Assembly: GCA_009920665.1 (NCBI GenBank)
Contig: RFZL01000020.1
Span: 1 to 40,337, forward strand
DNA length: 40,337 nt
Direction of reading: 5' to 3'
Source of the DNA: Alphaproteobacteria bacterium
GTDB taxonomy: Bacteria; Pseudomonadota; Alphaproteobacteria; Puniceispirillales; Puniceispirillaceae
How positions within the stretch are numbered: the first letter of the stretch is position 1; each line of letters starts with the position of its first letter. This document shows positions 12,447 to 29,482 of the stretch, one piece after another. Position numbers and translations under genes: made by a program. The notes under the pieces were generated by a model. That model saw only the letters and a list, made by a program, of their open reading frames with translations, was not told the origin of the DNA and did no database searches.

Positions 12447-13394
12447 CTACAGTTCGTCCAGCACCGAGTCCAGATTGTCGGCGCTGTCCAGATTGACCAT
12501 GGTGGCCTCATCAAGCGTCCGTTTCACCAGTCCCGACAGCACCTTGCCGGTGCCGATCTCGACAAAGCGGGACACGCCGGCCGCATTCGCGGCAAGCAGC
12601 GTCTCGCGCCAGCGAACGCGTCCGGTCACCTGCGTGACCAGATTGTCCCGCAGGATGCTGGCGTCGGTTTCGGTCGCGGCGGTGACATTACAAAAAACCG
12701 GCACCGCGGCATCCTTCATGTCGGCGCCGGCAAGCGCCTCCTCCATCGCCTCGGCGGCGGGCTGCATCATGCTGCAATGGAACGGGGCGCTGACCGGCAG
12801 CTTGATAGCGCGGCGGATCCCGCGTGCCTTGGCCGATTCGATGGCATGATCCACCGCCGCCACGGCGCCGCTGACGACAATCTGTCCGGGGGCGTTGTCA
12901 TTGGCGAGCTGGATCACACCGCTTGCGGACGCTTCGGCGACGATGTCGTTCACCACATCTTCCCCGGCATTCAGGATGGCCGCCATGGCCCCCTCGCCCG
13001 CCGGCACGGCGCCCTGCATGCTGTCACCGCGAAGCCGCAACAGGCACGCCGCATCGGCAATCGACAAAGTTCCAGCCGCGGCAAGCGCCGAATATTCACC
13101 AAGCGAATGGCCAGCCACGTAATCGGCAAGGTCGGCCATATCACGGCCGGTCGCCTTTCGCAGCACCGCAAGTCCGGCCATGGAGGCGGCGAACAGCGCC
13201 GGCTGTGCATTGCGGGTCAGGCGAAGGTCATCCTCCGGGCCATCCTGCATGAGCGCGAACAGATCCTCGCCAAGCGCATCATTGACCTCGTTAAAGACGG
13301 CGCGCGCTTCGGGAAAGGCTTTGGCCAGCGAACCACCCATCCCGACGGCCTGCGAGCCCTGCCCGGGAAACTGAAAAAGGATTTTGTCCGCCAT
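12447..13394 (-). CDS. fabD: Malonyl-CoA:ACP transacylase
   Basis: Transfers malonyl from CoA to ACP, supplying extender units for fatty acid synthesis. The 315-residue product starts MADKILFQFPGQGSQ, has the nucleophile serine in AGHSLGEYSA (about residue 97), the catalytic histidine in SAPFHCSMM, and the C-terminal FVEIGTGKVLSGLVKRT. The ATG at 13394 is preferred because GGAG lies at suitable spacing; a GTG 12 bases upstream is less likely. It is the first gene of the minus-strand fabD-fabG-acpP-fabF-mltG-gmk run and diverges from rpsF. Confidence 0.97.
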   Translation of the reverse strand: MADKILFQFPGQGSQAVGMGGSLAKAFPEARAVFNEVNDALGEDLFALMQDGPEDDLRLTRNAQPALFAASMAGLAVLRKATGRDMADLADYVAGHSLGEYSALAAAGTLSIADAACLLRLRGDSMQGAVPAGEGAMAAILNAGEDVVNDIVAEASASGVIQLANDNAPGQIVVSGAVAAVDHAIESAKARGIRRAIKLPVSAPFHCSMMQPAAEAMEEALAGADMKDAAVPVFCNVTAATETDASILRDNLVTQVTGRVRWRETLLAANAAGVSRFVEIGTGKVLSGLVKRTLDEATMVNLDSADNLDSVLDEL

Positions 13395-13480
13395 GATCCA
13401 CTCCACCTGATGACCGCGGCACCACCGCGACCGACTGTTCCTTGAAAATCGCGACGTCTTTGCCGACGGATTTTGGCGAA

Positions 13481-13509
13481 ATTATGCCACATAAGGATCC
13501 GGCTGGCAC
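13481..13509 (-). promoter_or_regulatory. Candidate fab operon promoter
   Basis: On the minus strand GTGCCA and CATAAT (5 of 6) are 17 bp apart, about 87 bp upstream of fabD. This is the best candidate in the 284-bp fabD/rpsF divergent gap. Confidence 0.45.
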
Positions 13510-13532
13510 GCATCCACGCCGACACTATTCAC

Positions 13533-13560
13533 TTGCACGCCGGCGTTGTTCGTGTATGGT
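13533..13560 (+). promoter_or_regulatory. Candidate rpsF operon promoter
   Basis: CTTGCAC and TATGGT are 16 bp apart; the leading C and TTGC match the strong ribosomal-gene promoters of alphaproteobacteria. It would give a leader of about 110 bases before rpsF. Confidence 0.4.
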
Positions 13561-13566
13561 GCCGCT

Positions 13567-13678
13567 TGCACTGTGCCGGACGGTTGTCGGCAGTGCCTAC
13601 ATCACTGAAACATTCCTTGCCGGGAAACCGGTTGGCCCGTCGCAGAGATGGCGGGCGATTAGCCAGAAGGAGTCACGC
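13567..13678 (+). promoter_or_regulatory. Structured 5' leader of the rpsF-rpsR-rplI operon
   Basis: The leader can form two hairpins. CACTG/CAGTG (13569-13573 with 13591-13595) is extended by CCG/CGG (13576-13578 with 13588-13590) across a two-base bulge. CCGG-GAAA-CCGG (13620-13631) has a GNRA tetraloop. In many bacteria the S6:S18 protein complex represses translation of its own operon by binding an rpsF leader hairpin. The structure here is seen by eye; that it is such a binding site is inferred. Confidence 0.35.
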
Positions 13679-14203
13679 ATGCGCTTGTATGAAAGCGTCT
13701 TCATCGCGCGCCAGGATATTTCGTCCACCCAGGTCGAAACCATGGCCGATGAATTTGCCGGCATCATCACCGAGGCCGGTGGCAAAATCCACAAACGTGA
13801 ATATTGGGGCCTGCGGTCGCTTGCCTATCGGATCAAGAAGAACCGCAAGGGCCATTACATCATGTTCAACCTCGAGACGGACGCCGCCACTCTGAAAGAG
13901 TATGAGCGGATCATGGGCCTGAACGAGGATGTTCTTCGCTTCCTCAACATCCGCATCGAGGAGGTCGAGGAAGGCCCGTCCATCATCATGCAGAACAAGG
14001 GTGATCGTGGTGACCGGGGCGATCGTGGTGACCGGGGCGATCGTGGTGACCGGGGCGATCGTGGTGACCGGGGCGATCGTGGTGACCGGGGCGATCGTGG
14101 TGACCGGGGTTCACGCCCGCCGCGTGCCGAGGCCCCAAAGGCCGAGGCTCCGGCTGAGGACAGCGCCGAAGCGCCCGCCGAAGACAGCAAGACAGAGGAG
14201 TAG
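13679..14203 (+). CDS. rpsF: Ribosomal protein bS6 with a 12-fold Asp-Arg-Gly tail
   Basis: bS6 binds the central domain of 16S rRNA as a dimer with bS18. The start at 13679 is fixed by AAGGAG and by the family N terminus [15 protein letters not shown]; the open frame upstream is incidental. Residues 1-100 are a normal S6 fold containing [18 protein letters not shown]. After NKG comes a perfect run of twelve DRG triplets (109-144), then an Ala/Glu/Pro-rich acidic tail (145-174). Most S6 proteins end near residue 100-135, so the product is long at 174. The run is encoded by six 18-bp DNA repeats. rpsR follows after 3 bp. Confidence 0.96.
14003..14110 (+). repeat. Six 18-bp tandem repeats inside rpsF
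   Basis: Six consecutive copies of GATCGTGGTGACCGGGGC; only the last copy differs, at its final base. Each codes for DRGDRG. The two DRG triplets in each unit use different codons (GAT CGT GGT, then GAC CGG GGC). The repeat therefore spread as an 18-bp block, not as single triplets. The near identity points to recent expansion or homogenisation. Confidence 0.98.
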
Positions 14204-14206
14204 GAC

Positions 14207-14461
14207 ATGACCCAGCTCGAAATCAAACGCGAAGCCGTTCGTCGCCCGTTTGGACGCCGCCGCAAGTCCTGTCCGTTTTCCGGGCCGAACGCCCAGACAA
14301 TCGATTACAAGGACACCAAGCTGCTGGCTCGCTACACCTCCGAGCGTGGCAAGATCGTGCCGTCGCGCATCTCGGCTGTTTCAGCCAAGAAACAGCGCGA
14401 ACTGGCGGTTGCCATCAAGCGGTCACGTTTTCTGGCACTGATGCCATACGTGACCTCGTAA
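14207..14461 (+). CDS. rpsR: Ribosomal protein bS18
   Basis: A small-subunit protein that forms a heterodimer with bS6 on the platform of the 30S subunit. The 84-residue product has the conserved core with [59 protein letters not shown] in order, and the usual basic character. It starts 3 bp after the rpsF stop, so the two partners are made together. rplI follows 30 bp later with GGAAGGAG upstream. Confidence 0.98.
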
Positions 14462-14491: not shown

Positions 14492-15130
14492 ATGGAAATC
14501 ATCCTGCTCGAACGAGTCGAAAAGCTTGGCCAGATGGGCGATGTCGTATCGGTAAAGCCCGGCTATGCGCGCAATTTCCTGCTGCCGCAGGGAAAGGCAC
14601 TTCGCGCCAATAAAGGCAATCTTGAAAAGTTCGAAACCGAAAAGGCACAGCGCGAGGCGGACAATCTCGCCCGCCGTTCGGATGCCGAAACCGAATCTGG
14701 CAAGATGGAAGGTCTGGCCGTCAATATGGTTCGCGCGGCATCGGAAATGGGACAGCTTTTCGGTTCGGTCACTTCGCGCGACATCGCCGATGCGGTGACC
14801 GAGGCCGGCTTCACCATCACCCGTGCCCAGGTGGTCATGGAGAAGTCGATCAAGACACTCGGCCTTCACGACACACGCGTCCGGCTGCATCCGGAAGTCA
14901 CAGTGACGGTCACCGTCAATGTGGCGCGTTCGCTCGACGAGGCCGAAACGCAGCTTCGCACCGGCGTTGCCGTGACCGGCATGATCGACGATGACGATGA
15001 TGTCGAGGAAGAGGTTGCTGTCGGGGCAGTGGCCGCTGAAGCCGCCGCCGAAGAGGCACCGGCTGAAGAGGCTGATGCCGATGACGCGGCCGAATCAGGC
15101 GATGACGCGACGGAGGACACCGACGCCTGA
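14492..15130 (+). CDS. rplI: Ribosomal protein bL9 with a long acidic tail
   Basis: bL9 binds domain V of 23S rRNA near the L1 stalk and helps maintain reading frame. The N-terminal domain has the signature GQMGDVVSVKPGYARNFLLPQGKA, followed by a long connecting helix and the C-terminal domain with LFGSVTSRDIADAV. The usual length is about 150 residues. This product has 212, because after about residue 165 there is an extension of almost only Ala, Glu and Asp. Such acidic tails on L9 are known in alphaproteobacteria. A strong terminator follows 53 bp after the stop. Confidence 0.97.
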   Translation: MEIILLERVEKLGQMGDVVSVKPGYARNFLLPQGKALRANKGNLEKFETEKAQREADNLARRSDAETESGKMEGLAVNMVRAASEMGQLFGSVTSRDIADAVTEAGFTITRAQVVMEKSIKTLGLHDTRVRLHPEVTVTVTVNVARSLDEAETQLRTGVAVTGMIDDDDDVEEEVAVGAVAAEAAAEEAPAEEADADDAAESGDDATEDTDA

Positions 15131-15178
15131 CCTGGCGAGACCCATGCCTGGCGAGATCAATGCCTGGCGGGATCAAAG
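15131..15178. repeat. Three 16-bp imperfect tandem repeats after rplI
   Basis: CCTGGCGAGACCCATG, CCTGGCGAGATCAATG and CCTGGCGGGATCAAAG follow one another directly after the rplI stop and before its terminator. The last unit shares GGGATCAAAG with the separate repeat at 29444. Confidence 0.9.
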
Positions 15179-29443: not shown

Positions 29444-29482
29444 CCCCGGGATCAAAGCCCCGGGATCAAAGCCCCGGGATCA
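29444..29482. repeat. 14-bp tandem repeats between two convergent genes
   Basis: CCCCGGGATCAAAG occurs twice without mismatch (29444-29457, 29458-29471), and a third copy continues to CCCCGGGATCA at 29482. The CCCGGG elements are self-complementary and can pair with each other to form GC-rich hairpins. The array fills the space between the flavin reductase-like stop and the convergent gene, and includes that gene's stop codon. Confidence 0.92.

Follow-up and report, generated by a model that had tools for sequence, protein, structure and literature searches.

We found that ribosomal protein bS6 of a SAR116-like alphaproteobacterium carries a C-terminal run of twelve Asp-Arg-Gly (DRG) tripeptides with an acidic end, and comparison with relatives, which carry the same kind of tail with other numbers of units, indicates that the repeat is genuine and that its length changes between species. 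In the window (the whole stretch of 40,337 nucleotides that was analysed), rpsF occupies 13679..14203 on the + strand, from an ATG at 13679 to a stop codon that ends at 14203, and encodes a protein of 174 aa (PF01250, 102.1 bits, cut-off 27; TIGR00166, 82.4 bits, cut-off 42.9) made up of the S6 domain at residues 4-92, a short linker, (DRG)12 and a 30-residue acidic end. The run (14003..14110, + strand) consists of six 18-bp units GATCGTGGTGACCGGGGC, in which the codons GAT CGT GGT alternate with GAC CGG GGC; five of the six are identical and the sixth ends GGT, with T instead of C. Tandem Repeats Finder placed the array at 13999-14109 (period 18, 98% matches) with a score of 215, by far the top of the window, where the runner-up scored 78. 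Translation and repeat detection together uphold what the initial annotation had described, namely a bS6 with a twelve-fold DRG tail from an 18-bp unit in five identical copies out of six, and the acidic tail that it placed after the run appears in the translation at 14111..14200 (+ strand). The protein ends in Glu-Glu, as it does in all six genus members read. Its assignment to bS6 follows from a Ribosomal_S6 domain above the cut-off and from the rpsF-rpsR-rplI neighbourhood, with rpsR (bS18, 84 aa, 14207..14461, + strand, PF01084 at 80.1 bits) and then rplI (bL9, 212 aa, 14492..15130, + strand, PF01281/PF03948) directly downstream. The gene had also been called essential, a wording that is unsafe, since E. 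coli S6 has been reported to be dispensable (PMC6821194).

The window is one ~40-kb contig of an assembly that totals 2,693,903 bases, has 214 contigs and is 99.15% complete. The nearest named records to its bS6 core, among the best 80 of 582 relatives, were alphaproteobacterial and SAR116-cluster assemblies, with core identities of 94% (L032) and 92% (L033, SAR116 MED-G116), in a comparison that may omit records from the genome of the window itself; on these sequences we regard the organism as SAR116-like. Several other features were observed in the window. On the - strand, the repeat opens a 136-codon frame (13855-14265) rich in Ser-Pro-Arg, which in all likelihood is a side effect of the codons for DRG. 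bL9 has an acidic C-terminal extension of ~67 residues beyond residues 1-145, which are matched by TIGR00158. Upstream of rpsF, CACTGAAACATTCCTTGCCGGGAAACCGGTTGG (13603-13635) showed at most one change in five genus relatives when compared by eye and is a candidate leader for bS6-bS18 autoregulation; an Rfam search of 13300-14300 with E up to 1 returned no bS6-bS18 leader and a single match, symR, at 19 bits against a gathering score of 61. A 16-bp unit, CCTGGCGAGATCAATG, is present in 2.9 copies at 15131-15176, adjoining the rplI stop codon, and a perfect 14-bp repeat, CCCCGGGATCAAAG, in 2.8 copies at 29444-29482, just past an open reading frame; the core of the latter, GGGATCAAAG, also occurs at 15169, its three matches being what is expected by chance.

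Within the genus, 12 genomes were searched and a bS6 match was obtained in six, the own genome included, the other six being incomplete assemblies (58-82%). Counting D or E as first and G or S as last residue of a DRG-type unit, the tails had 12 (own), 10 (G002), 7 (G007), 7 (G001), 6 (G009) and 6 (G005) units, and the pure DRG runs in the same order were 12, 9, 7, 5, 2 and 4. No single copy number, the outcome set beforehand as a refutation, is shared by these six genomes; copy number differs between related genomes, as in a variable-number tandem repeat. The variation that the initial annotation suspected between strains is seen here among related species. Indeed, G009 has a 107-residue core identical to that of the window (306/321 bases the same) and six units, two of which are ERG, and G007, the nearest in core DNA (312/321 bases), has seven. 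The 18-bp alternation was also found in G007, G009 and G002 with different synonymous codons (lag-18 identity 0.86-0.90 against lag-9 identity 0.69-0.80), and the two alternating synonymous codon sets support 18 bp as the unit of expansion. In the window array, lag-18 identity reaches 0.99, and because it is nearly homogeneous the array is probably a recent expansion of one 18-bp alternating unit.

Outside the genus, most family tails lack a long DRG run, and such runs recur in distant members of the class. In the family set (49 genomes with a match, 47 after the partial G014 and G032 were left out), 39 of 41 tails from other genera had no DRG run longer than two, the exceptions being L115 (4 units) and L121 (5 units) in two different genera; with D/E and G/S allowed, runs of at least four occurred in 3/41, and DRG runs of at least four were present in 7 of the 47 complete tails. 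From the class sample (192 genomes that are 90% or more complete, of which 188 had a match), tails were read for the 110 better-scoring genomes (30 loci and 80 more), G249 being omitted as cut at a contig end, and 109 complete tails were counted, with the open tail of G237 excluded and L159 counted despite a masked stretch. DRG runs of at least three were found in 12/109 and of at least four in 7/109, the latter spread over six family codes with the own one included (f1, f46, f47, f59, f100, f125), and 51/109 tails had no DRG at all. In the relatives' contig set (best 80 of 582 relatives, 77 complete tails after three open ones were excluded), the corresponding counts were 12/77 and 6/77. Both wide sets are biased to nearer relatives because best-scoring rows were taken, and the three sets overlap, identical proteins falling into 16 groups across the loci. 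A DRG run of three was never seen when the residues of the tails were shuffled (300 times each, four sets), and the twelve units of the window are the longest DRG run in the sets examined. On a FastTree phylogeny of 214 distinct cores, the 16 tips with a run of at least four needed at least 13 changes, which, on cores of ~104 residues that are short and poorly supported, is to be read as "many times" and not as a number. Tail length differed in 24 of 43 distinct-sequence pairs with core identity of at least 95% (pairs share members). A long tail is not generally needed, since L219 and L175 have bS6 tails of just 7 or 8 residues. From the sequences read, the window tail is an extreme case of a tail present on most alphaproteobacterial bS6, rich in Arg, Asp and Gly proximally and more acidic distally. 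Two Inquilinus limosus records, MP06 and DSM 16000 (L055:725-1177 and L057:2001-2429), encode bS6 of 151 and 143 aa, the difference being 8 Asp/Arg/Gly tail residues, and are a possible cultured case of tail-length variation.

The codons of these runs suggest that the peptide is what selection acts on. Distant runs are composed largely of distinct 9-base units (8/9 in L094, 6/8 in L103, 6/7 in L148, 7/8 in L157), and units differ mainly at third codon positions, second positions differing in one of 21 runs and first positions in 7/21; the first-position differences are partly CGN/AGR and Gly/Ser changes, and some of the third-position ones are Asp/Glu. Conservation of first and second positions is partly built in, as runs were picked as [DE]R[GS], and units that arose from one another by duplication do not count as independent, so that the codon-position counts were used without probabilities. 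For the window run itself such a probability would be invalid, its two codon sets having been copied together. With these caveats, scattered third positions beside constant second positions suggest selection on the peptide, and synonymous codons so scattered with the tripeptide kept would be hard to obtain by recent neutral copying alone.

We also characterized the tail as a polypeptide. An AlphaFold2 model from 70 aligned sequences gave pLDDT of 78-96 per block of ten over residues 1-100 and 48-67 over the rest, where a short helix (102-109) is followed by unstructured chain; the tail is predicted to be disordered, and the low pLDDT agrees with the flexible charged tail that had been proposed. 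At pH 7 the charge is -0.2 for the DRG segment and -5.2 for the whole tail, and for this reason the tail is not a cationic RGG-like one but a mixed-charge chain whose end is acidic. Of 103 class tails of at least 20 residues, 91 were more positive in the first half than in the second, and 7 were ties.

Several other explanations were weighed against these data. RGG/RG RNA-binding motifs have spaced RG dipeptides, RGG triplets and net positive charge and bind RNA. The window tail resembles such proteins in disorder and in the regular spacing of several RG dipeptides a few residues apart (RGDRGDRG...); it differs in that the Asp before each Arg neutralises the run (first half 0, not positive; whole tail net -4 to -5), in the absence of RGG triplets and, by reading, of aromatic residues, and in the lack of net positive charge, which weakens the likeness to RGG-type tails drawn in the initial annotation. 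An RNA-binding tail whose arginines hold rRNA or mRNA near the platform is unlikely in our estimate, even with a positive net charge of the proximal tail halves in the class set (median +2), with Arg-rich low-complexity regions enriched in RNA-binding proteins according to the part of the survey seen (PMC6821194), and with a bS6 that in Bacteroidia helps to build the pocket for the 16S 3' tail, as an excerpt of PMC9976891 describes. Neutral slippage, by which a non-essential disordered end would tolerate any in-frame expansion, we consider slightly more credible than RNA binding, with perhaps a one-in-a-few chance of being the answer. It agrees with near-identical units (lag-18 identity 0.99), a variable copy number and the absence of the run from near relatives outside the genus; it fits poorly with the identity of the tripeptides repeated three times, which in the class set are DRG in 13 tails against ERG in one and DSR in one (plus XXX, which is masked sequence) and in the relatives' contig set DRG in 13 against GGR in 6, and with synonymous scatter in runs whose peptide is kept. 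An assembly artefact, in which the count of 12 would be a collapse or expansion in a probably short-read assembly, would draw on the 214 contigs of the genome, on a 108-bp array of 18-bp units that may be close to short-read length, and on the known tendency of tandem repeats to cause assembly error (PMC6868369, in the part seen). The five other genus assemblies, however, carry a similar array of 6-10 units; in the window, the repeat keeps the reading frame and lies far from the ends of its 40-kb contig, and we hold this explanation to be quite improbable.

A DNA or RNA element lying in the coding sequence by coincidence, such as an mRNA hairpin ahead of rpsR, is very improbable. The segment 13999-14113 does fold to -57.5 kcal/mol (z -2.38 against dinucleotide shuffles), the window run had z -2.49 against its own codons reshuffled, and two of the 11 other runs were similarly low by the latter measure (L003, -2.53; L006, -2.44). 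Against random synonymous coding of the same peptide, however, the window had z +0.79, with the 12 runs spanning -1.89 to +2.49, in the genus member L005 the reshuffled codons gave the more stable fold (z +2.16), and relatives differ in the codons that they use; the RNA element was rejected on the ground that the fold, though strong, is no stronger than that of synonymous coding of the same peptide. The uninterrupted Gly-X-Y pattern scored above the Pfam Collagen threshold (PF01391, residues 108-145, 30.9 bits against a gathering score of 27.2) and gave weak PDB matches to collagen chains and collagen-like peptides, which would accord with a trimerising strand that links ribosomes. Collagen-like repeats, however, typically have proline at X or Y, and the twelve triplets at 14003-14110 have none; bS6 is present in one copy per ribosome, the NCBIfam collagen-like adhesin models were far under their cut-offs, and the Pfam match is what any G-X-Y repeat would presumably give, which leaves this explanation with next to no probability.

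The explanation that we favour is a genuine disordered mixed-charge extension of bS6, driven in length by slippage, kept by selection at the peptide level and acting as a soft spacer; taken as a whole, we see the case for and against it as evenly balanced, and its part on structure and origin is held with considerable confidence. The tail would lengthen and shorten as units of 9 and 18 bp slip in frame or are exchanged unequally, and selection, to go by the codon patterns with the caveats given above, would retain the Asp-Arg-Gly make-up and not the exact length. The tail may then act at the outer edge of the 30S platform as a soft spacer of mixed charge, which would tune weak electrostatic contacts with mRNA, rRNA or a neighbouring ribosome, the exact repeat number mattering little; this mechanism, drawn from position and chemistry, is the one that we judge most likely, and it remains tentative. 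When two E. coli ribosomes form a non-rotated disome, the leading ribosome contacts the queueing one through its bS6, which touches uS4, and through its bL9, which reaches the 16S rRNA; rotation abolishes the bS6-uS4 contact (PMC10897467, in the part seen). By virtue of the bS6-uS4 contact between E. coli ribosomes, the tail is placed where a neighbour ribosome could be within its reach, and the suggestion that it touches other ribosomes is to this extent plausible by position; the disome contact itself is one of bS6, and the part of that source seen does not mention a tail. Further, we raise as a long shot that the DRG tail of bS6 and the acidic extension of bL9, encoded in the same operon, form a length-tunable inter-ribosome tether that would set the packing of translating or stalled ribosomes and be reset fast between lineages by minisatellite slippage. 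If so, the recurrent DRG runs in six class family codes would be convergent adjustments of polysome spacing.

Tails of this kind are already known. A survey, in the part seen, counts S6 as one of the bacterial ribosomal proteins for which 20 or more low-complexity orthologues exist, describes such regions of S6 in at least 20 genera, their role being unknown there, and finds most low-complexity regions of bacterial ribosomal proteins to be C-terminal and on the ribosome surface (PMC6821194). The tail in the window is likewise C-terminal and on the surface; the average surveyed region is rich in Ala, Glu and Lys, whereas here there is a neutral Asp-Arg-Gly array from an 18-bp minisatellite that varies in length between close species. 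In E. coli and Pseudomonas, RimK adds glutamate to bS6 post-translationally (PMC10931766, PMC11957791, both in the parts seen), which also results in a charged C-terminus of variable length and charge, and the window tail ends in Glu-Glu; unlike that of RimK-modified bS6, its extension is encoded in the gene. The RimK model NF007764 gave no match above cut-off in any of 61 family genomes, with weaker matches in 56, and matched above cut-off in 1 of 14 control genomes, E. coli being among the controls; with TIGR00768, the best match in G000 (79.9 bits against a cut-off of 143.4) was the glutathione synthase gene, with two weaker matches besides. Modification of the window tail by RimK, with none above cut-off in the 61 genomes, is unsupported in the family. 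As in bacterial intragenic minisatellites (VNTR), the unit is tandem and in frame and its copy number differs in relatives; it differs from them in that the array sits in a ribosomal protein gene. The variation read here is that between species. Among open-licence papers, none was found on DRG repeats in bS6, on a SAR116 tandem repeat in a ribosomal protein, or on "ribosomal protein bS6" together with "C-terminal tail", and a literal search for the peptide in them returned none on ribosomes, as judged by titles and the starts of abstracts. What is new is therefore the DRG instance, its 18-bp origin, its variation in length and the recurrence of DRG, and not the kind of feature.

Ribosomal proteins are usually seen as fixed, and here a surface tail of bS6 varies in length between species with the same core while its composition is kept. 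That distant alphaproteobacteria carry this tripeptide run too provides a case in which selection on a disordered tail of the ribosome can be tested; should the tail prove functionless, it would still be a useful example of how much expansion the ribosome surface tolerates.
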